Source: an uncultured Roseovarius sp. (lineage in GTDB: Bacteria > Pseudomonadota > Alphaproteobacteria > Rhodobacterales > Rhodobacteraceae). From it: a stretch of 64,000 nucleotides of DNA. The DNA is taken from positions 372,001 to 436,000 of the forward strand of contig CANMBU010000001.1 in NCBI GenBank assembly GCA_947496175.1, given 5' to 3'. How positions within the stretch are numbered: position 1 is the stretch's first letter; each line of letters opens with the position of its first letter. Under the pieces are notes generated by a model, which made no database searches, was not told where the DNA came from, and worked only from the letters and a program-made list of their open reading frames with translations. The translations under genes were made by a program, and so were the position numbers. This document shows positions 19,513-34,908 of this stretch, piece after piece.

Positions 19513-19902
19513 TTAGACCCGACGACGTTTCGGCGGGCGGCAACCATTATGCGCAATCGGCGTCACATCACGGATCGACGTGATGTTAAAGCCAACAGCC
19601 GCCAGCGCGCGCAGCGCGCTTTCACGGCCAGAGCCAGGCCCCTGCACTTCAACTTCCAGCGTTTTCATACCGTGTTCCTGCGCCTTGCGGCCCGCGTCCT
19701 CTGCGGCCATCTGCGCGGCATAAGGCGTCGACTTCCGAGAGCCTTTGAAGCCCATGGTGCCCGCCGACGACCACGCAATCGCGTTGCCTTGCACATCCGA
19801 GATCAGGATCTTGGTGTTGTTGAACGAGCTGTTTACATGCGCCACACCCGTGGCGATGTTCTTGGAAACCTTGCGCTTGGTGCGTTTTGTATCACGTGCC
19901 AT
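19513..19902 (-). CDS. rpsK: 30S ribosomal protein S11
   Basis: 129 residues, normal length. It carries the S11 platform features [20 protein letters not shown] and the C-terminal [13 protein letters not shown]-type end (here [14 protein letters not shown]). It lies 15 bases after rpsM and ahead of rpoA. GGGAGGG precedes the ATG. Confidence 0.98.
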
Positions 19903-19917
19903 TGGTTCAGCCCTCCC

Positions 19918-20286
19918 TTACTTCTTCTTGCCGGCAATGGCCTTAGCAGGGCCTTTGCGCGTGCGTGCGTTGGTATGGGTGCGCTGACCACGAACCGGCA
20001 GGTTGCGGCGATGACGCAGGCCACGGTAGCAGCCAAGGTCCATCAGGCGCTTGATGTTCATCTGCACTTCGCGGCGCAGGTCACCTTCGACCATGTAGTT
20101 GGCGTCAATATGCTCGCGCACCGCCAGAACCTCGGCATCCGAGAGTTCATTGACGCGACGCGCAGGGTCAATCTTGACCGCTTCGCAGATGGCCTTGGCC
20201 GAAGAATGGCCGATACCAGTGATGTAAGTCAGGGCAATCGGGACCCGTTTATGGGTCGGAATGTTAACGCCGGCGATACGTGCCAC
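19918..20286 (-). CDS. rpsM: 30S ribosomal protein S13 (GTG start)
   Basis: 122 residues beginning [20 protein letters not shown], head protein contacting P-site tRNA and bridge B1. The basic C-terminus [18 protein letters not shown] is intact. The start codon is GTG at 20286 with AAGGA upstream, unlike the ATG starts of its neighbours. In this genome it is preceded not directly by adk but by a ~0.6-kb insert and its own promoter. Confidence 0.97.
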
Positions 20287-20441
20287 GTGTCATATCCTTT
20301 CGTTGCGGGTCCGTAGTTCCAGACCCTTTTTTCACAACGTAGGCCCGTCGCATTCGCTCCGGGCCGCAGCTGAATTCAGGTGGTCGATTCGGGCAACAGG
20401 AGCGACCTGTCAAGAATCATTACTCTCGTGCGAGATGGTGC

Positions 20442-20470
20442 GTGTTAGAAGGGTTTGGAAGGGGCGTCAA
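20442..20470 (-). promoter_or_regulatory. Putative sigma70 promoter of the rpsM-rpsK-rpoA-rplQ block
   Basis: Minus strand: TTGACG (20470-20465), 17-base spacer, TAACAC (20447-20442), giving a leader of ~145 bases before rpsM. It lies between the adk-side insert and rpsM, so the alpha block can be transcribed independently of secY-adk. Confidence 0.6.
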
Positions 20471-20569
20471 GCCTCTGGTCAGAGATTTCCTCATTTAGAG
20501 AAAAGACTAAAGAAAAAGGGGGGGAACTCGTGCTTGTCTTCATAAATCTCAACACGCGTGCATTTCGCT

Positions 20570-20920
20570 TCAAAGTTTAAACACGCCAGGATTTTCCGCT
20601 GGGTCATTTAAGATAACGAGACCTCTCTGAGTGAAAGACCTTTGAATCTGTTCTTGCTTATATGCAATTTCTCGAGATGTTCGAAAAATACTTTTTTCCG
20701 GGTTCATTGAACGCATCCAAAAACCCATTGCCAGCATCCAAACAAGCGATACAAAGGATCCAGTGGGGAAGTCAAAATAGAGAACACAGAACTGAAATGC
20801 TCCAATGGCTCCAATCCAAACGCCGCATTCTTTCCAAAAATACCCCGCCTGAATTCGGTTCAGTTCTTTGAATTCGTCAACCAGTGGTTTGAGATCGTCA
20901 GGTATAAGAGCAGGTACCAA
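20570..20920 (-). CDS. Hypothetical two-span membrane protein inserted between adk and rpsM
   Basis: 116 residues of no recognised family. A polar helix (LKPLVDEFKELNRIQAGYFWKE) precedes two hydrophobic segments (VWIGAIGAFQFCVLYF and FVSLVWMLAMGFWM), then a basic, Gln-rich tail (SREIAYKQEQIQRSF). The start lies 2 bases after the adk stop, so it may be translated with secY-adk. The region is visibly more AT-rich than the flanking ribosomal genes. adk and rpsM are normally close neighbours, so this looks like an acquired gene. Function unknown. Confidence 0.65.
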   Translation of the reverse strand: MVPALIPDDLKPLVDEFKELNRIQAGYFWKECGVWIGAIGAFQFCVLYFDFPTGSFVSLVWMLAMGFWMRSMNPEKSIFRTSREIAYKQEQIQRSFTQRGLVILNDPAENPGVFKL

Positions 20921-20922
20921 GT

Positions 20923-21567
20923 TTAGCCCAAAACACCCGCAATCTCTGCCTTGACCTCATCAATCTCGCCAAGGCCATTGACCCAGGCCAGATTGCCTTT
21001 GGCGTGGTAATAGCCAATCAGCATCGAGGTTTTCTTGTAATATTCCATCAGGCGGTTCTTGAGGCTTTCCTCATTGTCATCCGCGCGGCGGGTAAAGCCT
21101 TTGGCCTGACCACATTTGGCGCAAACTTCATCAGCCGGAATGGGTTTGGTAATATCGTTATAGACCTCACCACACCCGGCACAGGTTGCGCGTGCCGTGA
21201 TGCGGGCCACCAACGCGTCGTCGTTGACTTCCATTGCCACAACCTTGTCGAGCGTCTCACCAGTTTCATCCAGCAAGTCCGCCAAGGCATCGGCCTGAGC
21301 CAGCGTCCTTGGGAACCCGTCAAAGATGAACCCACCCTTTTTGTCGCCCTGCAGCTTTTCGCGGATCAGTCCAATGACGATCTCATCGGTTACAAGATCC
21401 CCGCGCGCCATCACATCGGCCACGATCTTGCCCATCTCGGACCCGCTGTCCTTGGCCTCGCGCAGCATGTCACCTGTGCTCAGCTGGATCATGTTGCGTT
21501 CTTCCACGAGGAAATGCGCTTGCGTGCCTTTGCCCGCCCCGGGCGGTCCGAGAAGAATGATATTCAT
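20923..21567 (-). CDS. adk: Adenylate kinase (zinc LID type)
   Basis: 214 residues; interconverts ATP + AMP and 2 ADP. The P-loop is [10 protein letters not shown] near the N-terminus, with the AMP-binding segment [11 protein letters not shown] and [14 protein letters not shown]. The LID carries four cysteines (CAGC and CAKC around residues 130-150), so it should bind structural zinc, unlike the E. coli enzyme. The start overlaps the secY stop by 4 bases (ATGA), showing translational coupling. Confidence 0.98.
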
Positions 21568-22928
21568 CGACGTGCTGTCCCTTTCCTGCGCGCCCGTTTT
21601 TTACCTTTGCCACCGAGCTGCGATTTCTCGATCAGATCCTCATATTGATGCGCCAGAAGGTGGGATTGCACCTGTTGGATCGTGTCCATGGTCACCGATA
21701 CAACGATCAAAACCGAAGTTCCGCCAAAATAGAAGGGGATCGCAAATTGCCCACGCAGAATTTCCGGGAGGAGACAAACCGCCGCAAGATAGGCCGAACC
21801 GAGCACCAGGATGCGCGTGACAACATATTCCAGGTATTCCGCGGTTTTCTTGCCTGGGCGAATGCCTGGGACAAACCCGTTCTGGTTCTTCAGGTTGTCG
21901 GCCACGTCATCCACTTTGAACGACACGTTGTAGGTGTAGAAATAGGTGAAGAAGACGATCATCACCGTAAAGAACACCAGATAGGCAGGCTGTCCTGGAC
22001 CAAAATAAGCCATGATCGTGGACATCACCGGCCCGGTCTGATCGCCCGAAAATGTACTGAGCGTTGCGGGCAACAGCAGCAGCGACGAGGCAAAGATTGC
22101 CGGGATCACACCCGCGGGGTTCACCTTGACTGGCAAGTGGCTTGAGCCGCCATCATAGACCTTCATCCCCACCTGACGGCGTGGATACTGAATGTGAATC
22201 TTGCGCAAAGAGCGCTCCATAAAGACCACAAAGGCAATGGTCGCAATCACCATGACGATGACGCCGATGATCACCGCCGGGCTAAGCGCACCAGAGCGGC
22301 CAGACGCGAAGAACTGTGCCAAGGCGGCAGGAAGTTCGGCAATAATGCCCACAAAGATGATCAGCGAGATACCGTTGCCCACGCCGCGTGCGGTGATCTG
22401 CTCCCCCAGCCACATCAGGAACATCGTCCCGCCCACAAGCGTGATCATGCAGCTTGCAATAAAGAAGAACCCTGGGTCAGACGCCAATCCGCCGCCCTGC
22501 AACGAGGCGGCCAGACCATATGACTGCAAGGTCGCCAGGAACACCGTGCCGTAGCGCGTATACTGGTTGATCTTCTTGCGCCCCTGCTCGCCTTCTTTCT
22601 TGAGCTGCTCCAACGCCGGCACCATGGCCGTCATGAGCTGCACAATAATAGAGGCCGAGATATAGGGCATAATGCCCAGCGCAAAGATCCCCATCCGGCC
22701 CAGCGCACCACCGGTGAACATCGACAGCATCCCGCCAATCGAGGCCTGTGCGCCCTCCATGAACTGGCGAAGTTCAGCCCCATCAATGCCCGGCACCGGA
22801 ATGAACGTGCCAATCCGGTAAACGATCAACAGGCCGATGGTGAAGAAGATACGCTTGCGAAGCTCTGTTGCTTTGCCCAGGGCAGCCCAGCTTGTGTTGG
22901 CCGCCATTTGTTCTGCTGCAGATACCAT
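21564..22928 (-). CDS. secY: Preprotein translocase subunit SecY
   Basis: 454-residue core channel of the Sec translocon, ten membrane spans. It starts with the amphipathic AELRKRIFF-like segment ([21 protein letters not shown]), has the plug-region [22 protein letters not shown], and the cytoplasmic [21 protein letters not shown] region. The C-terminus is strongly basic ([15 protein letters not shown]). It lies between rplO and adk as in the canonical spc operon. Confidence 0.98.
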
Positions 22929-23037
22929 GCGTGGTCTCTTTGTTATGTCAAACGCCGCCCGGGGCCGTTTTCCGGCCAGGCGGCGTCCAAAGGAAAACTA
23001 GAAGCTATGTAAGGGGACATGCGCCCTCTCACAAGTT

Positions 23038-23511
23038 TTATTCAGCCGCCTGAGCCGCCGCGACGGTCAAAGAACCGCCTGCTTTTTCCACTGCTTCAAT
23101 AGCCGATTTAGACGCGCCCGTCACTTCCAGCTTGAGCTTGGCACTCACCTCGCCCTTGGCCAGCACGCGGATACCGTCCAGCTTGCGCCGCACAAGACCG
23201 CTTTCAACGAGCACGTCCTCGGTGATCGCTTTCTTGGCATCCAGTTTCTTCGCATCGACGAATTTCTGAATGAGACCAAGGTTCACAACGGCAAATTTCT
23301 TGCGGTTCGGCTTGTTAAAGCCACGCTTGGGCAGGCGTTGGTAGAGCGGCATTTGCCCGCCTTCATAGCCATTGATAGCCACGCCCGAGCGGGATTTCTG
23401 ACCTTTGATACCACGGCCAGCAGTCTTACCCATGCCAGAGCCAGGACCACGGCCAACGCGTTTCTTACGTTTGGTCGCGCCGGGATTGTCGCGCAATTCA
23501 TTGAGTTTCAT
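23038..23511 (-). CDS. rplO: 50S ribosomal protein L15
   Basis: 157 residues beginning [20 protein letters not shown]; glycine/arginine-rich extension ([20 protein letters not shown]) followed by the globular part. ATG 23511 has AGGAGAAG upstream; the frame runs 17 codons further but without family support. rpmD, its usual upstream neighbour, is ~7 kb away, and a promoter candidate stands directly upstream. Confidence 0.97.
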
Positions 23512-23606
23512 ATCGCTTCTCCTAAGCCGGATGTGACCCCCGAAGCGTAACGGGCCAACCACGGCGTTTCTTGATTGTGAGTCGTATGGTGTAACACCAC
23601 CGGGGG

Positions 23607-23635
23607 CGTATAGACCCGAAGCGATATGTGATCAA
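23607..23635 (-). promoter_or_regulatory. Putative sigma70 promoter of the rplO-secY-adk block
   Basis: Minus strand: TTGATC (23635-23630), 17-base spacer, TATACG (23612-23607), ~95 bases upstream of rplO. It starts transcription again after the 7-kb insert. Confidence 0.65.
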
Positions 23636-23644
23636 GTGCGAAGA

Positions 23645-24028
23645 CTATTGCAACCGCGCCGGACTGGCCTGCCTCCGACGTTCGCTCACGAAAGTCGGGC
23701 GCTCAGACGCCGCCGCATGGGTCGATGTGACCTCAACAGACGGCAGACGCCGCGACCCCAACTGCCGCCAACGCTTCACCGCACCGCCCAACGACATCAC
23801 GATGTAAAACCCCTGGATCAGCGCCGCACTGAGATTGAAATCCACACTCAGCGACACCATCACACAAGACGCCGCGCTGCCCGTCAGCAAAAAATATGTC
23901 GGCGTGGAACAGCTCAGGCGTCCGGTACATAAAGCAAAAAACCCCAACACATAAATAGACACCCCCACCAGACCCACGGCACGACATACAAATACAGTAT
24001 CAACACTCGAAAACTCATACCAAACCAT
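23645..24028 (-). CDS. CBU_0592-like small membrane protein
   Basis: 127 residues with about three hydrophobic segments (FVCRAVGLVGVSIYVLGFFA, TYFLLTGSAASCVMVSLSV, AALIQGFYIVMSLGGAVKRW), matching the small CBU_0592-type membrane proteins in layout. The Gln-containing third helix ending VKRW fits that family. The C-terminal 35 residues are polar and probably disordered. ATG 24028 is preferred to an adjacent GTG. It is the first gene of the rpmD/rplO insert, and its stop lies 10 bases from the rplO promoter. Function unknown. Confidence 0.65.
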   Translation of the reverse strand: MVWYEFSSVDTVFVCRAVGLVGVSIYVLGFFALCTGRLSCSTPTYFLLTGSAASCVMVSLSVDFNLSAALIQGFYIVMSLGGAVKRWRQLGSRRLPSVEVTSTHAAASERPTFVSERRRQASPARLQ

Positions 24029-24272
24029 CACACACCCGGCTCTTTCTCAGCCCACGGTATATTTGGAACGCGCGTTAGGCTATGAAACCAAGCTTTCCCG
24101 ACCTGTGTTAGGGCGGTGTAAAGCGCAGCGTTAACGAAGCGTGAAAAAGGAAGGGAAACAGCTTAATCCGCGCGTTTTGTGAACTCAGCGGCGTACAGCG
24201 CACGTGACGCAAAGGTCAGTTGCGAGCCCAAGAAGACTCCCCTCGCGCGGAATCAAGGCGCGGTAGCGCCGC

Positions 24273-24409
24273 CGCGCGATCGCCAGACCGCCCCCCGGGC
24301 TGGCGATTGGTCCACGTGGGCGCTGAGATCAACGAGTTTGCGGGCTTGGCTGCCATAAAGTGACCTAGACCAATGGCAGGTCGCCACCCCGCGGTCTGGC
24401 CATCGCGCG
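24273..24409 (+). repeat. MITE-like element copy A (137 bp with terminal inverted repeats)
   Basis: The ends are CGCGCGATCGCCAGACCGC (24273-24291) and its inverted copy (24391-24409), matching at 18 of 19 positions. A second copy in opposite orientation lies at 42632-42767. The ends and the GGCTGGCGATTGGTC and TTGGCTG..TAAAG internal stretches are shared; the middle has diverged. An 8-bp inverted repeat (ATCGCCAG 24279-24286, CTGGCGAT 24300-24307) forms a sub-hairpin. No transposase is present. The surrounding gene-free stretch 24029-24596 shows nothing else I can support. Confidence 0.75.
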
Positions 24410-24596
24410 TCTTCGCACTCCAATTGCCAATGTCCGCTTCGTCCGCAAAGCCGTCCTCAAATTTTGGCTTCCTGTCCCATTCCTCATCCCCGCTGAAAAC
24501 TCTCTCCTTTCGCAACGGCAGTATTCGCAAACCGCATGGGCTGGTCAAAGCCTGCATCCAGCATAAATTTATCCAAAGCATCAACCGGAGCCAGAC

Positions 24597-24836
24597 ATGT
24601 CCAAACCAGAAATCGCCCAGAAATCCCCGTATCCCGTCGATGTCGAAGCAGGGAAAAATTACTTTTGGTGTGCTTGCGGGAAAAGCAGCAACCAGCCCTT
24701 TTGCGACGGAAGTCACAAAGATACGGATTTCACGCCCCTAAAGTACACGGCAGAAAAGGACGGCAAGGTCTTTTTCTGTGGGTGCAAGGCCACCGGCAAG
24801 TCCCCAATGTGCGATGGAAGCCACTCGAAACTTTGA
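24597..24836 (+). CDS. CDGSH iron-sulfur domain protein (two domains)
   Basis: 79 residues with two CDGSH-type [2Fe-2S] sites, each with three cysteines and one histidine: CACGKSSNQPFCDGSH (about residues 25-40) and CGCKATGKSPMCDGSH (about 61-76). Such tandem bacterial mitoNEET-like proteins bind redox-active or transferable clusters in the cytoplasm. CCGGAG precedes the ATG. It reads in the same direction as the Rieske gene 83 bases downstream. Electron-transfer or cluster-delivery role inferred only. Confidence 0.92.
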   Translation: MSKPEIAQKSPYPVDVEAGKNYFWCACGKSSNQPFCDGSHKDTDFTPLKYTAEKDGKVFFCGCKATGKSPMCDGSHSKL

Positions 24837-24919
24837 CCCCTTGCCTTGCAGATTAATGTATCTTTAGGTGCAAGGCGTCGCCTCTTGTTGGCTGGCCGAA
24901 ACGACCCAAAGAGCGCCCT

Positions 24920-25918
24920 ATGCAAAACCTGCACCCGCGTCACTACACCTGCGCCGAGGTCCACGCCTCTGATGTGCAGCGCATCTTTGCCAGCACATGG
25001 CAGATGATCGGCCCGGCCTCGCGTCTGGCCGAGCGCGGCGACTACATCGCCACCGAGATCGCCGGTCAAAAGGTATTCGTGGTGCGCGCCAAGGACGGGC
25101 TGCGCGCCTTTCGCAATGTCTGTCGTCATCGCGGCGCGCGCCTGCTGCCTGAGGGAGCGGGGCGGTGCAGCACGATCCGCTGTCCCTATCACCAATGGGT
25201 CTGGGGCGAAGACGGGTCCTTGCTGAACGTGCCGTGGTGGGGCGACAACGCCGACTTCAACATGGCCGACTGGTCCCTGGACACTGTGTCTTTCGAAATT
25301 TGGCGCGGGTTGTTGTTTGTCGCGATTGCACCAGAGATCAGCCTGACCAAGCAGCTCGCCGATACGGTGCCGGAACTGGAAAACGAACCTTTGGAAACCT
25401 TCCACTGGGTCCACGAGGAGCGTCTGATCTTCGACGCCAACTGGAAAATCTACACAGACAACTTCGTCGAAGGCTATCACATCCCGGGCATCCATCCCGA
25501 GTTTCACGCCGCAATCGACTTTGAACAGTTCGAGACCGTGGCCTGCGATGGTCTGGTGCGTATGTCCGCGCCGCCCAAGGACGCGCTTTTCTATCGCGGC
25601 AAATGGCTTTGGATGTGGCCCAACTGGACGCTGTCACTTTTCAATGGCGGTATGAACACATCGCGGATCAATCCCATCAACCACCGGCAAACCGAATTGA
25701 TCTACAACTTCTATTTCGCCGACACCTCTGAGGCGACCAAAGCGGCACGAGACAAGACAATCGCCGACAATCTGGCAGTGGTGCGTGAGGATTTTGAGGT
25801 CTGCCTGGAAACCCAGAAGAACTACGAAAGCGGAGGCTATCGTCCCGGCCCCCTGTCACCGCGCCACGAACAAGGTGTCGCCTATTTCCAACAGCGGTTG
25901 CGCGCCGCGCAAGAGTGA
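24920..25918 (+). CDS. Rieske non-heme iron oxygenase, alpha-subunit type
   Basis: 332 residues of the aromatic-ring-hydroxylating dioxygenase alpha-subunit family. The Rieske [2Fe-2S] site is CRHRGARLLPEGAGRCS..CPYHQW (Cys/His pairs around residues 68-91). The mononuclear iron site is DNFVEGYHIPGIHPEF (two His about residues 190-196), with the third ligand expected near the C-terminus. Proteins of this type demethylate or hydroxylate small amines or aromatic compounds. No reductase or ferredoxin gene adjoins it. The CDGSH protein is the only nearby Fe-S partner. A hairpin (CAACATC 25962-25968 with GATGTTG 25973-25979) follows the stop. Confidence 0.92.
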   Translation: MQNLHPRHYTCAEVHASDVQRIFASTWQMIGPASRLAERGDYIATEIAGQKVFVVRAKDGLRAFRNVCRHRGARLLPEGAGRCSTIRCPYHQWVWGEDGSLLNVPWWGDNADFNMADWSLDTVSFEIWRGLLFVAIAPEISLTKQLADTVPELENEPLETFHWVHEERLIFDANWKIYTDNFVEGYHIPGIHPEFHAAIDFEQFETVACDGLVRMSAPPKDALFYRGKWLWMWPNWTLSLFNGGMNTSRINPINHRQTELIYNFYFADTSEATKAARDKTIADNLAVVREDFEVCLETQKNYESGGYRPGPLSPRHEQGVAYFQQRLRAAQE

Positions 25919-26027
25919 AAACTGGCCACGTCTGACTAAAGTTATGCTTGCTTAACTCTCTCAACATCTTGCGATGTTGCGCCCGAACGGCGCATTAAAT
26001 TCGGCCGGAAACCGATGCCGCACCGAC

Positions 26028-26062
26028 GCAATACCGACGTGATACTGATGCAATACCGACGT
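26028..26062. repeat. Short direct repeats downstream of the Rieske gene
   Basis: GCAATACCGACGT occurs at 26028-26040 and 26050-26062 with GATACTGAT between. Only two copies, no regular array. It lies in the 452-base gene-free stretch 25919-26370, which otherwise holds a hairpin (25962-25979) and the ectC remnant. Confidence 0.6.
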
Positions 26063-26112
26063 TCAAATCCTGCGAAATAAGGGCGTTAACCTTTAAGCGG
26101 CTGTTTGCATTT

Positions 26113-26205
26113 TCACTCGGGCGCCGCATAGCTCCCATCGGCGTCATGGGTCTCTTGACCACTGAGCGCTGGCGTAAAGATACAGATGAACCGCAGGTCC
26201 GTTTC
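26113..26205 (-). pseudogene. Truncated ectC remnant (C-terminal 29 codons)
   Basis: On the minus strand the stretch translates in frame as ETDLRFICIFTPALSGQETH then DADGSYAAPE and a TGA stop. It matches the C-terminus of the intact ectoine synthase gene at 28117-28509: bases 26124-26205 and 28137-28218 agree at 77 of 82 positions. Upstream of 26205 the similarity stops abruptly and no catalytic core is present. The remnant has its own stop (AAPE end, unlike AVPCNSE in the intact gene), so it is the tail of a second ectC copy rather than a perfect recent duplication. Confidence 0.85.
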
Positions 26206-26370
26206 TCGGGATCGTGGAACAACATCCCTTCCGAACACTCGGAGGGAATCTCGGTCTGAGAAATCTGGAATCTGTGGGATAATACTCTGCGGACCCGCCT
26301 GTCTGAAATGGTGTCTGCACTTTAGTGGTCAATGTCACAACCCAGACAGAGTCTGTAGCTCCATCGACGC

Positions 26371-27030
26371 TTATGCCTCTTCGCGAGCCTTCAACGCCTC
26401 ACTGATCTGATCACGATGCCAAAGTCCCATATAACGTCGTTGACGGAAATCTTCGTCGCCGCCTTCATCTTGACCAATGGGTACATCTGAAATCAACTCC
26501 AAAGGCTGCGGGAAGTTGAAAGGTTCAATACGCGGATTGAACCAGCGGAATTTCCCATTCTCCGGAACGTTTCGGTTAAAAGGATTATCGTGCACAGTCG
26601 TCAATAGATAAGACGAATGAGATGCCAGGAAGTTCTCAAAAAACTCCCAGCGCAACCAGAATTTCAGGTGAAACAAGCAATCACGGCACATGATCATATC
26701 GGCCTTGGGCAGCGGATCATTGGTGATATCGGCCAGCTCAAACTTTACGCTTCGACTGCCAAACTGCTTTGTGTTGGTTTCAACCAGGTCTTCGACGATC
26801 TCAAGCCCAATGTATGAGACACCTTTCAGGTCGACCTTTTGCATCCAATGCCAGTCGCCGCAAGGCGCGTCGACAAAACTCTTGACCTGGTACTTGCGAA
26901 ACAACATCGGCAACGCCGCGCGCAAGGACTCAGTATGCGCAAGAGTAGATCCCGGACCAGAGCGCGGAACGCCCTTTTTGTGCTCAGACCAGTCAATCGC
27001 AGAGAAGGAATCTTGAAGCTTCTGACGCAT
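26371..27030 (-). CDS. Class I SAM-dependent methyltransferase
   Basis: 219 residues with a Rossmann-like methyltransferase core: motif I is VDAPCGDWHWM (about residue 55), followed by the acidic SYIGLEIVEDLV strand end, FELADITNDPLP (motif II area) and MIMCRDCLFHL. This version of motif I, with PCGDWHW, occurs in methyltransferases of surface-polysaccharide or small-molecule clusters. GAAGGGGA stands upstream of the ATG. It begins 14 bases after the glycosyltransferase-like gene, so the two form an operon. Substrate unknown. Confidence 0.8.
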   Translation of the reverse strand: MRQKLQDSFSAIDWSEHKKGVPRSGPGSTLAHTESLRAALPMLFRKYQVKSFVDAPCGDWHWMQKVDLKGVSYIGLEIVEDLVETNTKQFGSRSVKFELADITNDPLPKADMIMCRDCLFHLKFWLRWEFFENFLASHSSYLLTTVHDNPFNRNVPENGKFRWFNPRIEPFNFPQPLELISDVPIGQDEGGDEDFRQRRYMGLWHRDQISEALKAREEA

Positions 27031-27044
27031 TGGTATCCCCTTCG

Positions 27045-27920
27045 CTATTTCCCAGCACGATAGAGTTTTCGGCGCAGTTGCGCACTTTCTTTGCTGTCTC
27101 GATGTGTGATGGGGTGGGTTTCGGGGTCAATCCGGTGCGCTCGGCAAAGCAATTCGAGAAAGCTATCAACTGGCGGGACGCCGTTCATGCCTTGCCTGAC
27201 CAACCGACGGCGAATGCCAGACGCATAAAGATGCATAGACATGCTGCGGCGGCGCAACTCCGCTAAATCATATTGCGTGGGTGTTGCAATCAATGTGGTA
27301 GAGTGGCGTGCCATCACTGGGTTCAGAATAGAAAACTCCGTCGCCATGCTGTCCTCGCCGCTCTCACACAGAAAATACCCAAACGCTTCCGGGCCGGTCA
27401 CGCCCACCGGCAGTTTCTCGAAGGAAAAGTCACCTACGAGATCTTCCTGGGTTTTAACCTGTAAATCACTCCACCAGGGCGGGCGCACACCGGTTTGAGA
27501 TACAAAGTTTTCCATCTCCAGAGTTGCTGGGCTGTTGCGTGGTGTGCGGATAACACTGTTTGGCACGAAGTTCTTCTTGCGCACAGCAAACAAATAACCC
27601 TTCGTCGTGACATGGGGTTGGAGCGCATAGATGTCCGCGTCCACCCAAATGTGATCTGTTTTGCGCATTAGCATGACGCGGAAAATGTCCGAATGTATGC
27701 GCGGATCATCAAGACGATCCTTGCCCCAGTATGTCTGCGTAAAAGCTTCGTCCATCACCTCTCTCGCATCGCGCAGATCGACATAGTCAGGGACGTCCTC
27801 AATTTCGTCGTATGTATAAAGAATTGGGGTTTGGCCGATGTCGTGAAAAGACTTCAGGCTAAGACGCTCGAGCCAAGATAGTTGGGGCCCTATCCAAAGG
27901 GTCGCCACGGTGTTTGTCAT
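27045..27920 (-). CDS. Glycosyltransferase-like protein (capsular-polysaccharide type, DXD)
   Basis: 291 residues resembling glycosyltransferases with a DXD sugar-nucleotide site. The N-terminus TVATLWIGPQLSWLERLSLKSF matches that family's opening, LYTYDEIEDVPDYV gives the donor fold, and the acidic pair lies in DHIWVDADIYAL. The nearby FAVRKKNFVPNSVIR is typical as well. ATG 27920 has AGGA just upstream; a frame extension of five residues is possible. Together with the downstream methyltransferase it suggests decoration of a surface glycan, an inference from context only. Confidence 0.78.
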   Translation of the reverse strand: MTNTVATLWIGPQLSWLERLSLKSFHDIGQTPILYTYDEIEDVPDYVDLRDAREVMDEAFTQTYWGKDRLDDPRIHSDIFRVMLMRKTDHIWVDADIYALQPHVTTKGYLFAVRKKNFVPNSVIRTPRNSPATLEMENFVSQTGVRPPWWSDLQVKTQEDLVGDFSFEKLPVGVTGPEAFGYFLCESGEDSMATEFSILNPVMARHSTTLIATPTQYDLAELRRRSMSMHLYASGIRRRLVRQGMNGVPPVDSFLELLCRAHRIDPETHPITHRDSKESAQLRRKLYRAGK

Positions 27921-28116
27921 ATGTCCTGCACTCAAGATTTGGAGCTTTTTTCGCCGTAAATAGTGCGTAACACATGGCCGGCTATCGACAAAGGTCGGAT
28001 AAAGGCGAAATTTCGGCCTCGTATACGACCGAATCTTTTGTGCAACACCTAAGACCAGAAGTGCTGGTTACGGATCAGAACAGCCCCCAATCGACCTTTT
28101 ATTTAGCGTCAGAGCG

Positions 28117-28509
28117 TTACTCAGAATTGCATGGCACCGCATAGCTCCCGTCGGCATCATGCGTCTCCTGCCCACTGAGCGCTGGCGTAAAGATACAGAT
28201 GAACCGCAGGTCCGTTTCAGCCCGGATGATATGGGGGTCATGCTCATCCAGCACATACATCACCCCGGGCTCCAAGGGCCAGGTTTCACCGGTGGCGGCG
28301 TTCTCAACTTCTCCTTTCCCTTCAATGCAGTAGTTCGCCTCAATATGGTTCTTGTAGTGCAGATGCTGGGTGCTGCCGGCCTTCACCACCGTGTCGTGAA
28401 ACGAATACCCCAACCCATCCCGCGCCAACAAAATCCGCCGGCTTTCAAAAGCGTCTCCTGTGGCATGATCTGGTGTGCCAAGTACGTCAGAAAGCGTTTT
28501 TACCAACAT
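28117..28509 (-). CDS. ectC: L-ectoine synthase (solitary EctC)
   Basis: 130-residue cupin that would close N-gamma-acetyl-diaminobutyrate to ectoine. EctC landmarks are DGLGYSFHDTVVKAGSTQHL, HYKNHIEANYCIEGKGEVE and PGVMYVLDEHDPHIIRA. They contain the Glu, Tyr and His expected as iron ligands. The end is SGQETHDADGSYAVP. ATG 28509 follows GAGGGAA. The usual ectA and ectB partners are absent from the window; neighbours are a glycosyltransferase gene and VWA genes. Solitary EctC proteins are known and may use imported precursors or have another ring-closing role. A 3' remnant of a second copy lies at 26113. Confidence 0.88.
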   Translation of the reverse strand: MLVKTLSDVLGTPDHATGDAFESRRILLARDGLGYSFHDTVVKAGSTQHLHYKNHIEANYCIEGKGEVENAATGETWPLEPGVMYVLDEHDPHIIRAETDLRFICIFTPALSGQETHDADGSYAVPCNSE

Positions 28510-28570
28510 ATTCAATTCCCTCGCAGTGCTGTGAGTTGATTTTAGGCCCGTTGGGATATGTTATGACAAC

Positions 28571-29269
28571 ATGAAGAGCACAAAGACAATCCTGGCCAGC
28601 TGCCTCGCCGCAAGCCTCACGTTCAGCACAACAGCCTCTGCCACCGATTGCGCCCGTGATGCGATGCTGGTGTTTGACGGATCAGCCTCCATGGCCGAAT
28701 TGGGCCTCAACCTTGCAGATCCCAAGCGCATCGACGACGCCCGCACTGCGTTACACGACGCGATGCCGCAGATTGCCCCGGTGCGCCGGATTGGTCTGTT
28801 GACCTATGGGCCGGGTCCGGAGAACTCCTGTGAAGGGATCAACCTCAAGTTTGGGCCTGTCGCGGATGCTGCGCAGCCGATCCTTGAGGCGATAGAGCTA
28901 CTTGATCCCAATGGCTTAACCCCCCTGACAGAGGCCGTACGCACCGCTGCAGATGTACTTAACTATCGCTCAGAACCCGGTATCGTGGTGCTTGTTACAG
29001 ATGGCAACGAAACCTGCGGTGGACGCCCCTGCGCCCTGGGCGCGGAACTCGCGGCAACGGATCGCGACCTCACTGTGCACGTCATCGGCTTCCGCGTGGT
29101 GACAGACAGGTTTGCCTGGGACAGCCCCGAGGCCAATGTGTACCCCGATGGCATTTCCGTGGCCAAATGCCTCTCCGATCAGACAGGCGGCATGTATGTG
29201 TCAACCGACACTATTGATGAGCTAAGCCAGGCCCTGCGACGCACTCTGGGATGCGCCCTCATTGGGTAG
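28571..29269 (+). CDS. Secreted VWA-domain protein (tandem copy 1)
   Basis: 232 residues. A signal peptide MKSTKTILASCLAASLTFSTTASA is followed by a von Willebrand factor A domain. The metal-ion-dependent adhesion site is DGSAS in AMLVFDGSASMAELG, with the other MIDAS parts in LTPLTEAV and LVTDGNETCGG. Conserved cysteines (DCARD, NSCEG, ETCGGRPC, AKCLSD, GCALIG) suggest disulfides in the periplasm. The next gene is a paralogue overlapping by 8 bases. Likely role is metal-dependent binding of a protein partner in the periplasm; the partner is unknown. Confidence 0.88.
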   Translation: MKSTKTILASCLAASLTFSTTASATDCARDAMLVFDGSASMAELGLNLADPKRIDDARTALHDAMPQIAPVRRIGLLTYGPGPENSCEGINLKFGPVADAAQPILEAIELLDPNGLTPLTEAVRTAADVLNYRSEPGIVVLVTDGNETCGGRPCALGAELAATDRDLTVHVIGFRVVTDRFAWDSPEANVYPDGISVAKCLSDQTGGMYVSTDTIDELSQALRRTLGCALIG

Positions 29270-29948
29270 GGTGCTGAAGACCGCCGCCGCAACGGGCCTT
29301 GCGTTATGCGTGGCCACCCAGAGCATGGCGCAATGCAGCCGGGACGCCATGCTGGTCTTTGACGGCTCAGCCTCCATGGCGGAACTTGGCTTTGGCACCA
29401 GCGGCCCCTCACGCATTGAAGAAGCCCGCACGGCGGTGAGCGAGGTGATGCCGCAGGTCGCCCCGGTCCGTCGCATCGGGCTTTTGACCTATGGGCCGGG
29501 CGCAGCGGACAGCTGTCGCGGGATACAGGTGAAATTCACACCAAGGGCAGATGCAGATCGGGCCGTGATTGCAGAAGTCGAATCCCTGCGCCCCTCGGGC
29601 CTCACCCCGCTCACGGATGCCGTGCGCGAGGCCGCAGAGGTGCTGGACTACCGCAGCACGCCCGGCATCATCGTTCTGGTCACGGACGGCTCGGAAACCT
29701 GCGGCGGCGCACCCTGTCGGCTTGGCCGGCACCTGGCATCGACAGGTCGCGATCTGACGGTGCACATCATCGGGTTCCGACTGGTATTTGACCCATTCTC
29801 TTGGAACAGCATTGAGGCGTTTCAGGCCGCCGCCGCGGAGGTGCAATGCCTCGCAGATCAGACCGGCGGGAGCTATGTGACAACCGAGACGGTGGACGAG
29901 TTGGCGGAAGCGTTACGGCGGACATTGGGGTGTGCGGTGGTGGGGTGA
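29262..29948 (+). CDS. Secreted VWA-domain protein (tandem copy 2)
   Basis: 228 residues from TTG 29262, or 225 from GTG 29271, both inside or just after the end of the preceding VWA gene. The signal peptide is LKTAAATGLALCVATQSMA and the mature part starts QCSRDAMLVFDGSASMAELG. The MIDAS motif, the ETCGGAPCRLG segment and the C-terminal VDELAEALRRTLGCAVVG match copy 1 closely, so the pair arose by duplication. Overlap of 8 bases and the non-ATG start point to coupled translation. Function as for copy 1, unknown partner. Confidence 0.86.
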   Translation: MGRVLKTAAATGLALCVATQSMAQCSRDAMLVFDGSASMAELGFGTSGPSRIEEARTAVSEVMPQVAPVRRIGLLTYGPGAADSCRGIQVKFTPRADADRAVIAEVESLRPSGLTPLTDAVREAAEVLDYRSTPGIIVLVTDGSETCGGAPCRLGRHLASTGRDLTVHIIGFRLVFDPFSWNSIEAFQAAAAEVQCLADQTGGSYVTTETVDELAEALRRTLGCAVVG

Positions 29949-29974
29949 TGGCATGCCATAACCATAATGCCTTG

Positions 29975-30343
29975 TTATTTTTTCTCACAATTTCCAAAAT
30001 GCTGAGCCGCCACAATTTCTCCAAACAAAACAGTGTTACGCGAGTGAACTGCCTGTCCACCACTCATCACGGTTGTTGTTTGGATAGCACCCGAAGATAG
30101 TTTTTCCGTGAATGAGAACGCACTTTCACCAACATAAATCTCTACTGCAACAAACCCGGCGTTGCCCTGCATATAGGCCTTCTGAGAAATGGTATCCACT
30201 TTGAACATCAATAGCATTTCCTCTTTGGCGACACCGTCGGCGTCGACTCTAGTTTCAAAGTCACAATCCCAATCTAGCACCTCGGAAGAAGTCGGGCTGG
30301 CACTACAGGCCAAAACGAAAATCACACTATTAAAAAACTTCAT
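29975..30343 (-). CDS. Hypothetical small exported protein (possible lipoprotein)
   Basis: 122 residues from ATG 30343 (MKFFNSVIFVLACSASPTSS). The hydrophobic start ends at VLAC, so it may be a lipoprotein signal, though the -2 leucine is not ideal. The rest (SEVLDWDCDFETRVDADG, AVEIYVGESAFSFTEK) looks like a beta-rich secreted domain with a C-terminal Cys. No family recognised. Convergent with the VWA genes and followed on its own strand by none. The DNA is more AT-rich than its neighbours. Confidence 0.65.
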   Translation of the reverse strand: MKFFNSVIFVLACSASPTSSEVLDWDCDFETRVDADGVAKEEMLLMFKVDTISQKAYMQGNAGFVAVEIYVGESAFSFTEKLSSGAIQTTTVMSGGQAVHSRNTVLFGEIVAAQHFGNCEKK

Positions 30344-30407
30344 TGCAAATTGGTCCACCAAATAACTCTCAATTCAGAGTAGAGTTTTTTAAGCTTACAA
30401 TAAAACT

Positions 30408-30438
30408 AAAAACACCCCGGCCATTTCTGACCGGGGTG
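30408..30438 (-). terminator. Rho-independent terminator after rpmD
   Basis: Perfect 8-bp stem CACCCCGG (30413-30420) with CCGGGGTG (30431-30438). On the minus strand it is followed by TTTTTAGTTTTA. It ends the rpmC-to-rpmD block at the edge of the 7-kb insert. Confidence 0.8.
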
Positions 30439-30442
30439 CACC

Positions 30443-30495
30443 GGCGGGGGTGAACCCCGCCCTACATATTGGGGTAGGCCGGGGTTTACCCCGGC
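30443..30495. repeat. Two GTAGGG-type palindromes after rpmD
   Basis: Copy 1 (30443-30465, reverse orientation) has GGCGGGG with CCCCGCC arms. Copy 2 (30474-30495) has GCCGGGG with CCCCGGC arms around TTTA. Each carries GTAGGG or GTAGGC just outside the stem. Further copies are at 39675, 43266, 46706 and 46737. Confidence 0.75.
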
Positions 30496-30501
30496 ACGTA
30501 T

Positions 30502-30690
30502 TCACCCTTTTTCTTCGACGATTTCCACCAGATGCGGGATCTTGTTGATCATGCCGCGCACGGAAGGTGTGTCTTCCAGCTCGCGGGTTTTGTGCATCTT
30601 GTTGAGGCCCAGACCAATCAGCGTGGCGCGCTGGTCCTGAGGGCGGCGGATGGGCGAGCCCACTTGTTTGACGACGATGGTTTTTGCCAT
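30502..30690 (-). CDS. rpmD: 50S ribosomal protein L30
   Basis: 62 residues, normal length, with the L30 core [20 protein letters not shown] and [20 protein letters not shown]. It closes the block that begins at rpmC and is followed by a strong terminator. Its usual downstream neighbour rplO is ~7 kb away. The start lies 12 bases after rpsE. Confidence 0.97.
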
Positions 30691-30702
30691 GTGTCCGTCT
30701 CC

Positions 30703-31269
30703 TTACGCTTCGGCCGCTGCATCAGCAGCAGGCGCTTCATCCTTGCGCAGGATGTCGGCAACTTTCTTGCCACGACGCTGAGCCACCATGCGCGGGCTGG
30801 CTTCTTTTTGCAGGCCGTCGATTGTGGCGCGGATCATGTTGTAAGGGTTGGCCGAGCCGATCGACTTGGCCACAACGTCCTGCACGCCCAGCATCTCGAA
30901 CACAGCCCGCATCGGACCACCGGCGATGATACCGGTACCGGTCGGTGCTGTGCGCATGACCACTTTACCGGCGCCATGACGGCCTTCGATGTCGTGGTGC
31001 AGCGTGCGGCCTTCGCGCAGAGGTACGCGGATCATCTGACGTTTGGCTTGCTCAGTGGCCTTGCGAATAGCTTCGGGCACCTCTTTGGCTTTGCCTTTGC
31101 CAAAACCAACACGGCCCTTTTGGTCGCCGACAACGACGAGGGCCGCAAAACCAAAGTTCTTACCGCCCTTGGTTGTTTTTGAAACACGGTTGATCGCAAC
31201 CAGGCGATCGGCGAATTCCGGGGCTTCGTCGCGATCGCGACCACCACGGCGATTGTCATCTCTTGCCAT
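30703..31269 (-). CDS. rpsE: 30S ribosomal protein S5
   Basis: 188 residues from ATG 31269 ([20 protein letters not shown]), with AAAGGTGG upstream. The S5 double-stranded RNA-binding core is [20 protein letters not shown], then [14 protein letters not shown] and the [20 protein letters not shown] part. The C-terminus has an Ala-rich tail ([13 protein letters not shown]) that E. coli S5 lacks. The frame extends 24 codons upstream across a palindromic spacer, without family support. Confidence 0.97.
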
Positions 31270-31347
31270 TATAGGCCACCTTTCTTTGGCGCTGTGCGCC
31301 GGTTTTTCCAATCCCAGTGAGTTCAAAGACCCCCGGATCATCGAGAG

Positions 31348-31368
31348 GCCCCGGACATGATTCGGGGC
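31348..31368. repeat. GCCCCGGA palindrome between rplR and rpsE
   Basis: GCCCCGGA (31348-31355) pairs with TTCGGGGC (31361-31368) around a 5-base loop. Same motif as at 18314 and 42460. It sits between two cotranscribed ribosomal genes, so it is not a full terminator. Confidence 0.7.
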
Positions 31369-31376
31369 ATCTGCGC

Positions 31377-31736
31377 TTAGATTTTCAAGCCACCTTCACG
31401 TGCGGCATCTGCCACGGCTTTGACTTTGCCGTGAAAGAGAAACCCGCCACGGTCAAAATAGGCCTCGGTCACGCCCGCTTTCTTGGCGCGTTCCGCAATG
31501 GCGGCCCCAACCTTGGTTGCAGCTTCCACATTGTTTTTGCCCACAACGCCGAGATCTTTTTCGAGCGTCGAAGCTGCAGCCAGCGTCACACCATTGACGT
31601 CGTCAATAAGCTGCACGCTGATGTTTTTGTTCGAGCGGTGGACCGACAGGCGCGCGCGCCCGGCGTTGACCTTGCGAAGTTTGTTCCGGACGCGCAGGCG
31701 GCGCTTAAGGAACAGTGTTCTTTTGCTGTTTGCCAT
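31377..31736 (-). CDS. rplR: 50S ribosomal protein L18
   Basis: 119 residues; binds 5S rRNA with L5. [20 protein letters not shown] at the start and the C-terminal [20 protein letters not shown] are family-typical. It lies 12 bases after rplF. The spacer to rpsE (~107 bases) is longer than elsewhere in the block and holds a palindrome. Confidence 0.97.
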
Positions 31737-31748
31737 CTCTCTGCGTCC

Positions 31749-32282
31749 TTACTTCTTCTTGCCTTCCTTCTGGAAGATATACTCGTCCTTGTAGCGAATG
31801 CCTTTGCCCTTATAGGGCTCTGGCCGACGCCAGTCGCGGATATTGGCCGCGACTTGACCGACGAGCTGCTTGTCATGGCCTTCCACGATCAATTCCGTGG
31901 GCTTTGGCGCCGTGACAGTCACACCTTCCGGAACCGGGAAATCCACATCATGGCTCAGGCCAAGGTTCAGCTTCAGGACGTTGCCCTGCATCTGAGCCCG
32001 GTAACCAACGCCTCGGATTTCCAGCTCTTTCTTGAATGTTTCTTTCGAGCCGTGGATCATGTTGGCAATCACGGTGCGAGTCATACCCCATTGCTGGCGT
32101 GCACGCTTGGATTTCCCACGTGGTTCCACGGTGACCGTGCCATCCGCAACCGTCAGCGTCACGTCATCCGTGGCAGTGAACGATTTGGTGGCCTTGGGCC
32201 CTTTGATCTCGATTGTCTGACCACTCAGTGTCGCCGTGACACCATCAGGCAGAGCAACCGGTTGTTTGCCGATACGAGACAT
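31749..32282 (-). CDS. rplF: 50S ribosomal protein L6
   Basis: 177 residues with two related domains: [20 protein letters not shown] at the start and the second-domain [20 protein letters not shown], ending in [17 protein letters not shown] plus a lysine tail. Binds 23S rRNA near the GTPase centre. Standard position between rpsH and rplR. Confidence 0.98.
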
Positions 32283-32296
32283 TTCTCAAAGCCCCC

Positions 32297-32689
32297 TTAG
32301 AATACGGTGCAAAGCACTTCGCCGCCCACATTGGCCGCACGTGCATTTGCATCCGACATCACACCTTTGGAGGTGGAGACAATCGACACGCCCAGACCCT
32401 GACGGACCTGTGGAATGTCACCGACGCTCATGTAAACCCGACGACCGGGTTTTGAGACCCGCTTCATCTCGCGGATCACAGGAGCGCCATCGAAATACTT
32501 CAGGCTCACTTCGATAGCCGGATGGCCATCTTTACCCGTGGCATTTTCAAACCCGCGGATGTAGCCTTCGTCGGCCAGCACATCCAGAACGCGCACGCGC
32601 ATTTTGGAGGCCGGAACCATGACAGTGGATTTGCCACGCATGCCCGCGTTGCGGATACGGGTGAGCATATCGCCGATAGGATCGTTCAT
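32297..32689 (-). CDS. rpsH: 30S ribosomal protein S8
   Basis: 130 residues from ATG 32689 ([20 protein letters not shown]), with AGGGA upstream. The C-terminal [20 protein letters not shown] is typical. Central 16S rRNA binder; in E. coli it is the translational repressor of the spc operon through an rplE leader structure, which I did not identify here. The frame extends 25 codons upstream into rpsN and is not used. Confidence 0.97.
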
Positions 32690-32702
32690 CTCATGTCCCT
32701 CC

Positions 32703-33008
32703 TTACCAGCTCGACTTGACCATGCCCGGAAGCTGACCGGCTGACCCAAGCTCGCGCAGGGCAATCCGGCTGATTTTCAGCTTACGGTAATAGGCATGCG
32801 GCCGGCCTGTGAGCTGGCAGCGGTTATGAAGACGAGTGGCCGAGCTGTTGCGCGGCAGGTTCGCCAGTTTCAGAGAAGCCCGGAATCGATCTTCCATCGG
32901 CTTGTCCTGATCATTGATGATCTCTTTCAAAGCGGCCCGCTTGGCGGCGTATTGCTTCACCAGGCGCTGACGCTTCTTTTCGCGTTCGATCATTGCTTTC
33001 TTAGCCAT
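32703..33008 (-). CDS. rpsN: 30S ribosomal protein S14
   Basis: 101 residues, long form without the CXXC zinc pairs, as usual in proteobacteria. Contains [20 protein letters not shown] and [20 protein letters not shown]. Assembles late into the 30S head. Between rplE and rpsH with short spacers. Confidence 0.97.
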
Positions 33009-33026
33009 GTCTAAAGTCCCTCGCGA

Positions 33027-33590
33027 TTAGCTGCTGAAAGGCATGTTGAAATGCTTCAACAGTGCCTTGGCTTCAGCGTCGGTCTGCGCCGTGGTTCCGA
33101 TAACAACGTCCATGCCCCAAACTTCGTCGACCTTGTCGAAGTTGATCTCTGGGAAAACGATGTGTTCCTTGATGCCCATGGCATAGTTGCCACGGCCGTC
33201 AAACGACTTGCCCGACACGCCGCGGAAGTCACGGATGCGCGGCATGGCCACAGTGATCAGACGATCCAGGAATTCATACATGCGGTCGCCGCGCAGGGTT
33301 ACTTTTGCGCCCATTGGCATGCCCTCACGCACCCGGAACCCCGCGATGGAATTCTTGGCGGTGGTCATGACTGCGTGCTGGCCTGCAATAGTGGTCAGGT
33401 CCTCCTGAGCCGACTTGGCTTTCTTGGAGTCTTTGACCGCCTCGGCGCCACAGCCGATATTGAGAACGATTTTCTCAAGGCGCGGGATCTGCATGTCGTT
33501 CTTGTAGCCGAATTCCTCTTTCAGGGCGGCGCGGATGGCGTCCTTGTAAGCGGCTTTCAGGCGTGGGGTGTAGTTGCTCGTATCAAGCAT
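33027..33590 (-). CDS. rplE: 50S ribosomal protein L5
   Basis: 187 residues; 5S rRNA-binding protein of the central protuberance. Contains [20 protein letters not shown] and the [20 protein letters not shown] loop that meets the P-site tRNA. Start overlaps the rplX end by 8 bases, indicating coupled translation. Confidence 0.98.
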
Positions 33591-33894
33591 CGATCACGTC
33601 CCCCGTGGTCTTGGCGTAACGCACTTTCTTGTCGCCTTCCATCTTGAAGCCGACGCGAGTGGGTTTGCCCTTTGCATCAACAAAAGCCAGGTTGCTCAGG
33701 TCAATTGGCATCGCCTTGGGAAGGCGGCCACCCTGGCTTGTCTGGCTTTGGCGTGTGTGGCGGATGGCCATGTTCACGCCATCGACGACCGCTTTGCCGG
33801 CCTTGGGGTCAACAGAGGCAATCGTGCCTTCCTTGCCCTTGTCCTTGCCAGCCAGAACGACGACCTTGTCGCCTTTTTTCAACTTAGCAGCCAT
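33583..33894 (-). CDS. rplX: 50S ribosomal protein L24
   Basis: 103 residues with the KOW motif [20 protein letters not shown] at the start. Early assembly initiator of the 50S subunit. Overlaps rplE by 8 bases and lies one base from rplN. Confidence 0.98.
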
Positions 33895-33895
33895 A

Positions 33896-34264
33896 TCACA
33901 GCACCTCCGGGGCGAGCGAAATGATCTTCATGAAGTTCTTGGCCCGCAATTCGCGCACAACCGGCCCGAAGATACGGGTGCCGATGGGTTCACCTGCGGT
34001 ATTCAGGATCACAGCGGCGTTGCGGTCAAAGCGAATGGCAGTGCCGTCTTCACGGCGGATTTCCTTGGCGGTGCGAACAACAACGGCCTTACGAACGTCG
34101 CCCTTCTTCACACGGCCGCGTGGGATGGCTTCCTTCACCGAGACGACAATGATATCGCCCACGGACGCATATTTGCGCTTGGAACCACCCAGGACCTTGA
34201 TGCACTGAACCCGGCGAGCACCGGAGTTGTCAGCAACATCCAGATTGGTCTGCATCTGGATCAT
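33896..34264 (-). CDS. rplN: 50S ribosomal protein L14
   Basis: 122 residues starting [20 protein letters not shown]; highly conserved through [20 protein letters not shown]. Bridge B8 protein at the subunit interface. Preceded by rpsQ with a ~75-base spacer. Confidence 0.98.
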
Positions 34265-34339
34265 GAGGTTTCTCCCGACCTTTGGGGGGCGTTATTGCCT
34301 TTTCCCCAGGGTTTCGATCAAACCGAAAGGCTCAAAGGC

Positions 34340-34570
34340 TTACGCCTCCAAAACCTCCCAGCGTTTCGTTTTCGATTTCGGCGCGCATTCGATAATGCGG
34401 ACTTGGTCACCGACCTTGAAAGCGTTCTTTTCATCGTGAGCCCGGTACTTCTTGGACTTACGAATGGTTTTCTGAAGCACAGGGTGCTTGAAGCGGCGTT
34501 CAACCGAGACGGTGACGGTTTGGGCGTTTGCGTCGGAGGTCACGACGCCGGACAGTATACGCTTGGGCAT
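34340..34570 (-). CDS. rpsQ: 30S ribosomal protein S17
   Basis: 76 residues, [20 protein letters not shown] start and OB-fold core [20 protein letters not shown]. Normal for short alphaproteobacterial S17. Between rpmC and rplN. Confidence 0.97.
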
Positions 34571-34581
34571 AGGTGCTCTCC

Positions 34582-34785
34582 TTAATCCGCAGCCGCGTCA
34601 GCAGCTTTTTCATTCAACACGGTTTTGACACGCGCCACATCACGGCGCACTGTTTTGATCCGTGCAGGGTTTTCCAGCGACCCGGTCGCTGCCTGAAAAC
34701 GCAGGTTGAACTGCTCTTTTTTCAGGTTGGCCAGCTCCTCACGAAGCTGGTCAGGCGTTTTATCACGCAACTCAGTGGCGTTCAT
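34582..34785 (-). CDS. rpmC: 50S ribosomal protein L29
   Basis: 67 residues from ATG 34785 ([20 protein letters not shown]). AAGGAAG lies 7-13 bases upstream, so this ATG is preferred to the one at 34791. Binds near the exit tunnel. Its usual upstream neighbour rplP is ~4.9 kb away. The gene is first of a separate block with its own promoter at 34909 and a leader hairpin. Confidence 0.96.
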
Positions 34786-34875
34786 TGCCATCTTCCTTCT
34801 CAAAACACCGGCCTGCCCCTGATTTGGATGGCTCAGGGTCACACGGAGTACCCGGTGGATGAATAACAAAGCGAA

Positions 34876-34894: not shown

Positions 34895-34908
34895 CGTCAG
34901 ATGGGCGC

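Follow-up and report, generated by a model that had tools for sequence, protein, structure and literature searches.

A solitary ectoine synthase gene with an altered substrate-contact residue, placed between the ribosomal protein genes rpmD and rplO in Roseovarius

What role can an ectoine synthase gene, ectC, play in a genome in which neither ectA nor ectB accompanies it? The question is raised by a stretch of 64,000 nucleotides from an uncultured Roseovarius sp. (assembly GCA_947496175.1, contig CANMBU010000001.1, positions 372,001 to 436,000), hereafter the window, whose own positions are used throughout. On its minus strand, the window has an intact ectC (28117..28509), encoding 130 amino acids from an ATG at 28509 or 132 amino acids from a TTG at 28515, and a 93-bp copy of an ectC 3' end (26113..26205). 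An earlier sequence-only reading had described both and had suggested that the solitary protein may use another substrate. The present comparison places the intact gene in a recurrent slot of a ribosomal protein cluster and its product in a clade of its own, which is marked by a change at a residue that contacts the substrate. Genomes and loci of the comparison are denoted by G and L numbers, respectively.

By profile and by predicted fold, the protein belongs to the EctC family. It matches the profiles PF06339 (Ectoine_synth) and NF009806 with 177 bits each, against cut-offs of 27 and 128, respectively. Its AlphaFold model has the Fe-cupin fold with a mean predicted local distance difference test score of 86 and low confidence in residues 118-130, and its eight best PDB matches are ectoine synthases only, at 45-47% identity. 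The sequence-only reading had called the gene intact with all expected ligand residues. The gene is indeed intact and the iron ligands Glu-57, Tyr-84, and His-92 (Paenibacillus lautus numbering, used for all residues below) are all kept, but Trp-21 is replaced by Phe and Asn-38 by His. The claim that no ectA or ectB lies near can be extended to the whole genome, in which both were searched for. In 3.85 Mb, with a completeness of 99.96% by the tool's figure, PF06339 has two matches, namely the intact ectC and the fragment. Neither ectA nor ectB is found over its family cut-off, the top match of the EctA model being 23 bits (cut-off 120.6) and that of the EctB model 177 bits (cut-off 552.2). The window ectC is therefore solitary genome-wide, and the genome has no ectABC biosynthesis cluster.

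The position of the gene is a recurrent one, which the sequence-only reading had missed. The ectC lies between rpmD for ribosomal protein L30 (30502..30690, minus strand), the upstream border of the slot, and rplO for ribosomal protein L15 (23038..23514, minus strand), the downstream border, both named by eye; secY, adk, and S13 beyond rplO and S5, L18, and L6 beyond rpmD were likewise read by eye. Among 60 genomes of the genus, 22 have an ectC in this slot, the window genome included. In 19 of these, rpmD and rplO are both in the stretch viewed; in G076 rpmD was seen and rplO was placed via coordinates, G027 and G069 show rplO only, and the total omits G071, which has the same proteins as L078 and shows only a von Willebrand A (VWA) gene. 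PF06339 is matched in 54 of the 60 genomes and EctA exceeds its cut-off in 35, which fits the ectoine production reported for Roseovarius sp. MS2 in the available text of PMC8182680. An ectC without ectA occurs in 19 of the 60 and neither gene in 6; the 22 slot genomes divide into 17 without and 5 with ectA.

As a control, 20 of the remaining 38 congeners were viewed around rplO, with the window EctC as query, a search that still recovered the 48% identical ectC of L134. There was no ectC in the stretch viewed in 19 of them, and the twentieth is G010, considered below. The gap between rpmD and rplO is 200-401 bp in five of these congeners (G007, G033, G021, G016, and G012), a VWA gene stands near rplO in 12 of the 20, and rpmD lies beyond the stretch in 5. 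In size, the slot ranges between a gap near 200 bp without genes and more than 12 kb. Among named loci, rpmD or rplO is beside ectC in 16 of 24, including Lentibacter and a Rhodobacter metagenome-assembled genome (MAG). A sample of 295 genomes of the family gave eight matches at an E value of 1e-42 or better, the window genome included; four of the other seven, which represent four other genera, are in the slot (G261, G119, G218, and G156), and three have no slot genes within 6 kb (G192, G092, and G161). Among the papers listed by the literature searches, none places ectC in a ribosomal cluster, as judged by title or abstract.

The slot proteins also form a separate lineage. In a tree of 75 EctC proteins, whose deeper joins are unsure because columns are few and some branches are long, 31 slot rows stand together with support of 100/97 and 32 EctABC-type rows with 100/99. 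Identical proteins are counted once in this tree, the stop of G026 is read as X, and the split gene of G028 and L144-L149 are left out. The slot group was defined by the presence of rpmD, rplO, rpsE, or VWA in the stretch and hence includes L078, in which only VWA is on the contig. The EctABC-type group was assigned by locus of origin and includes G017, whose genome is incomplete and has neither EctA nor EctB above the cut-offs. At position 21, all 31 slot rows have Phe and all 32 EctABC-type rows have Trp; position 107 is Thr in all 31 and Asn in all 32, and position 109 Ala in all 31 and Pro in all 32. At position 85, every slot row has Val and 31/32 EctABC-type rows have Ala, and at position 59 Asn is found in 30/31 slot rows and Val in 32/32 EctABC-type rows. 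On the other hand, Arg-25, Thr-40, Tyr-52, Glu-57, His-92, and Phe-106 are kept in 31/31 slot rows and Tyr-84 in 30/31. The His at position 38, where Asn contacts the substrate carboxylate in P. lautus, is not discriminating, since all 31 slot rows and all 32 EctABC-type rows of the genus have it. Phe-21 alone is unique to the slot rows of the tree, with Trp-21 present in 10 of the 11 other rows. In the family sample, Trp is found at this position in G161 and Phe in five genomes, including G192 and G092 outside the slot.

The residue at issue has been studied in other EctC proteins. According to the available text of PMC6344544, Trp-21 contacts the substrate, the activity of the P. lautus enzyme falls to 9.7% when this residue is exchanged for Ala, and it is conserved in 437 clustered EctC proteins and also in 145 orphans, sometimes shifted by two residues. 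The equivalent exchange leaves 26% activity in Sphingopyxis alaskensis, as stated in the part of PMC4795551 available. Positions 59, 85, 107, and 109 may likewise shape the pocket. Because a substrate-contact residue is changed across the slot clade, the earlier suggestion of a different substrate is plausible. The slot gene as a remnant of the ectABC operon of the genus was considered and rejected, with the slot EctC in a clade apart from the EctABC-type proteins, and for the same reason the proposal that a larger ectoine locus once stood here finds no support.

The ectC gene is probably set off from its ribosomal neighbor. A 12-pair terminator-like hairpin with a T-rich tail lies behind rpmD (30412..30439, minus strand). 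With G-T pairs counted, a stem of 10-12 pairs followed by a T-rich tail starts 24-68 bp past the L30 match in the window, in 21/21 other ectC-bearing slot loci tested, and in 3/4 loci without ectC. As the search across loci was run without shuffles, the claim draws on the constancy of the position and on the stem of 10-12 pairs; a generic scan of 23000-31500 gave no excess of terminators over shuffles (6 vs. a mean of 9.3). In this family, the ribosomal cluster is probably split at this hairpin, with ectC in the boundary, and co-transcription of rpmD and ectC is unlikely because the hairpin intervenes. No sigma-70-type promoter was found on the minus strand within 61 bp before ectC, and no RNA family was matched at the gathering threshold in 19000-35000.

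For the function of the slot EctC, an even chance is given to a retuned EctC-type cyclase that acts on a scavenged or catabolic substrate, outside de novo ectoine synthesis. The window EctC would be a working Fe(II)-cupin ring-closing enzyme, converting an N-acylated diamino acid into a cyclic amidine by cyclodehydration, with its pocket retuned through Phe-21 and the changes at 59, 85, 107, and 109, and its gene would be read separately, behind the rpmD terminator. The substrate would not come from EctA and EctB but would most likely be imported or set free when an ectoine-like solute is degraded, and would resemble N-gamma-acetyl-diaminobutyrate (N-gamma-ADABA) without necessarily being identical to it. 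In this scheme, the fold and family, the clade, the slot, the absence of ectA and ectB, and a low ratio of nonsynonymous to synonymous change are observed, whereas we infer the catalytic activity, the substrate type, the separate transcript, and the salvage role.

The locus L066 (G000:C2:378000-397000) holds a variant catabolic cluster of the hydroxyectoine type, in which EutB is over cut-off and is accompanied by EutD-like, EutA-like, ArgE-like, Rieske, PhyH-like, and aminotransferase genes. This gene content suggests the breakdown of an ectoine-like compound. In Halomonas elongata, ectoine hydrolase yields ADABA as alpha and gamma isomers at 2:1, the gamma isomer being seemingly unused by the next enzyme, according to the available portion of PMC5924519. 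The alpha isomer, too, can serve EctC as a substrate, at a 73-fold lower efficiency, as given in the part of PMC4795551 at hand. A recycling role for the slot EctC is possible. A class of EutD-like matches of 384-396 bits is found in 8/60 genomes, all with slot ectC; several of these are close kin, two genomes without slot ectC have EutD-like matches at 419 and 434 bits, and no weight is put on this class. As a separate observation, G075 (L068 8004-9691, also L108) has two intact slot ectC genes of 126 and 127 amino acids flanking a gene for a two-domain GNAT acetyltransferase, all on one strand, and this GNAT gene is a candidate maker of the substrate.

Several points weigh against a retuned cyclase. 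The change from Trp to Phe is conservative and the Ala variant of Trp-21 is partly active, so that normal ectoine synthesis is possible. The signature is also shared in part by the 11 other rows of the tree, with Ala-109 in 5, Asn-59 in 3, Thr-107 in 1, and Val-85 in 1, and Leu occupies position 21 in the slot protein of G156. The catabolic partners in the window genome are uncertain: EutB passes its cut-off, but the others fall under theirs, namely EutD-like proteins (390 and 581 bits, cut-off 613), an EutA-like protein (239, cut-off 318), EutE (51 bits, cut-off 402.7), and EhuB (41, cut-off 190.9), and the 581-bit EutD-like gene adjoins polyamine-type genes. A canonical ectoine consumer is not demonstrated by this set, in which EutB is over cut-off and EutD, EutE, and EhuB are under it. 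Finally, the slot ectC is broken in 2 of 22 genomes, by one stop in G026 (L048) and by stops and a frame change in G028 (L050), and the gene is absent from most of the family, in which 7 of 294 other sampled genomes match. The gene is therefore dispensable and can be lost.

The alternative that survives best, held with some reserve as a real but lesser possibility, is an ordinary ectoine synthase that uses scavenged or recycled N-gamma-ADABA, in line with a proposal made for Pseudomonas syringae and its solitary EctC; the pocket changes would then be neutral. The metal ligands and most substrate contacts are kept, and an unused gamma isomer from the hydrolase would make a recycler useful to an ectoine consumer, as can be drawn from the available text of PMC5924519. 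Moreover, genomes with ectA have slot ectC less often than those without (5/35 vs. 17/25 genomes; Fisher p 3e-5, uncorrected for kinship). The slot-only label needs 7 changes on a 45-row species tree, which omits G076 as its SecY is outside the stretch. An ectABC set even stands in the place of the orphan gene. In G010 (L134, G010:C17, 376-4973), a MarR gene (ectR-like), ectA, ectB, ectC, and a gene for an amino-acid kinase, interpreted as an ectoine-linked aspartokinase, lie directly upstream of rplO, with the contig ending before rpmD, and G082, the sister of G010 in a SecY/L15/S5 tree (100/98), has an orphan ectC at that place. This is an apparent natural swap of an orphan ectC with ectABC between sister species. 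Against ordinary synthesis, positions 21, 85, 107, and 109 are fixed in 31/31 slot rows and differ from all 32 EctABC-type rows, and the window genome is without EutD, EutE, and EhuB over cut-off. In addition, P. syringae imported added N-gamma-ADABA and no ectoine was seen, although these data are called not yet conclusive in the portion of PMC5924519 available.

A bolder form of the retuned-cyclase proposal is regarded as rather unlikely. It would have a family-specific EctC clade that has switched substrate and acts on the ring of some cyclic amidine that is not ectoine, by closure or by opening, as a slot-kept housekeeping enzyme for a solute or for metabolite repair that is replaceable by ectABC. 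Still more doubtful is a passenger gene without selected function, retained by chance in an insertion hot spot. The variable size of the slot and the broken copies in G026 and G028 would fit such a passenger, but the ratio of nonsynonymous to synonymous substitution rates (dN/dS, Nei-Gojobori) of the window ectC is 0.025 to G031 and 0.04 to L067, and the median is 0.12 over the 123 of 153 pairs with finite dS, many dS values being near saturation. The signature is also kept in 31/31 rows, and the ectC frame survived the insertion described below in the window and in G078, while a gene of the insert decayed in G078. A role tied to translation, in which the protein or its product aids ribosome assembly or stability, would suit the recurrent position within a ribosomal cluster and is nonetheless highly improbable, given the terminator-like hairpin that separates ectC from rpmD in the window and 21 other loci tested and the unrelated genes (VWA, ectABC, and insert genes) that also occupy the slot.

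There remains the 93-bp tail. The sequence-only reading had matched it to the intact gene at 77 of 82 bases; the value obtained here is close (80/86 bases, E value 2e-33) and is not chance, and the family model also finds the fragment by itself, with 32.9 bits at positions 98-125. That reading had left the choice between an insertion and the decay of a duplicate. Insertion is favored because the flank of the fragment follows a single ectC in L051 (G031) and L067 and the 3' end of the intact window gene is new. Positions 7899-8087 of L051, comprising the ectC end and its flank, align with window 26005-26205, and the ectC body aligns with 28137 onwards; L067 shows the same alignment pattern. In both relatives, the flank of the fragment (26005..26112 in the window) lies directly behind their single ectC. 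The fragment has the terminus of G031 and L067, as a remnant of the original 3' end would, whereas the end of the intact window gene is nine bases longer and another flank follows it. The closing codons and this flank are new, in the window as well as in G078 (L110), which has the same arrangement.

A 1.9-kb insert (26206..28116, minus strand), absent from L051 and present in G078, separates the old ectC 3' end from the new one. Its first gene (27045..27935, minus strand) encodes a glycosyltransferase-like protein of 296 amino acids, so called from a weak Caps_synth match under cut-off and a reading by eye, and is damaged in G078 by an internal deletion and stops. The second (26371..27030, minus strand) encodes an S-adenosylmethionine (SAM) methyltransferase-like protein of 219 amino acids with weak Pfam matches under cut-off; its relatives occur in 17 plasmid records, and 8 of the 10 listed are annotated as class I SAM methyltransferase. 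Neither gene was found in a set of 14 loci or in the 24 named loci, and no integrase was recognized in the insert, in which the two open reading frames give the weak glycosyltransferase-like and methyltransferase-like Pfam matches.

The fragment looks like an insertion scar rather than a decayed paralogue. As for the mechanism, DNA with an ectC 3' end and two genes may have recombined into ectC, which would have restored the ectC frame and left the old 3' end behind as the 93-bp fragment. The identities do not follow this history in a simple manner. Within the window, fragment and intact tail agree at 85/93 bases, and against G031 the fragment agrees at 82/92 and the intact tail at 81/92. On the species tree, G078 groups with the window (92/81), and both have the insert, but in the 5' part of ectC the closest pair is G078 and G031 (287/291), the window matching each at 277/291, and the intact tail of G078 is nearer to the window fragment (88/93) than to the window intact tail (86/93). 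Later recombination or conversion must therefore be assumed. A decayed second full copy would draw on these non-tree-like tail identities and on the two intact slot copies of G075, yet in its flank and its short 3' terminus the fragment agrees with the lone ectC of L051 and L067, and the intact gene has new ones with nine extra bases, so that this origin is given only a small probability.

The remainder of the 7-kb interval between rpmD and rplO holds CDGSH and Rieske genes on the plus strand, a gene for a 128-amino-acid protein of unknown type, and two tandem VWA protein genes, the first (28571..29269, plus strand) divergent from ectC and the second (29262..29948, plus strand) following it. 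The tandem VWA genes at 28571-29948 appear to encode secretion signals, by eye only.

Compared with the EctC proteins of ectABC clusters, such as those of P. lautus (5ONM, 5ONN, and 5ONO) and S. alaskensis (5BXX and 5BY5), the window protein has in common the cupin fold, the iron ligands, and most substrate contacts, at 45-47% identity in the structural match. It differs in a genome without ectA and ectB, in Phe-21, in the fixed changes at 85, 107, and 109 (and at 59 in 30/31 rows), and in the ribosomal slot. The role of orphan EctC proteins is stated as unresolved in the available texts of PMC5924519 and PMC6344544, and the slot clade provides a tractable handle on it, with a signature at a mechanistically studied residue and a recurrent locus that eases the recognition of orthologues. 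Further handles are cultured hosts without ectAB and the apparent natural swap with ectABC between sister species.

Solitary EctC proteins such as that of P. syringae B728a, which make up 145 of 582 in the survey of PMC5924519 as far as its available text goes, have in common with the slot proteins an ectC without ectAB. The surveyed orphans are 37-42% identical to the EctC of P. lautus and retain the Trp, which is displaced by two residues in some of them, according to the accessible part of PMC6344544, whereas the slot clade has Phe-21 and one recurrent slot. The nearest rows outside the slot clade, at 60-63% identity, are the orphans L084 (a Marinibacterium MAG), L085, and L086 (alphaproteobacterial MAGs), which differ from it in keeping Trp-21 and in their neighborhoods. 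The ectC of L085 and of L086 is near MTTB-family genes, in L086 also near DAO and aminotransferase genes, and that of L084 is near acyl-CoA-type genes. These surroundings hint at other substrates for the closest relatives of the slot clade.

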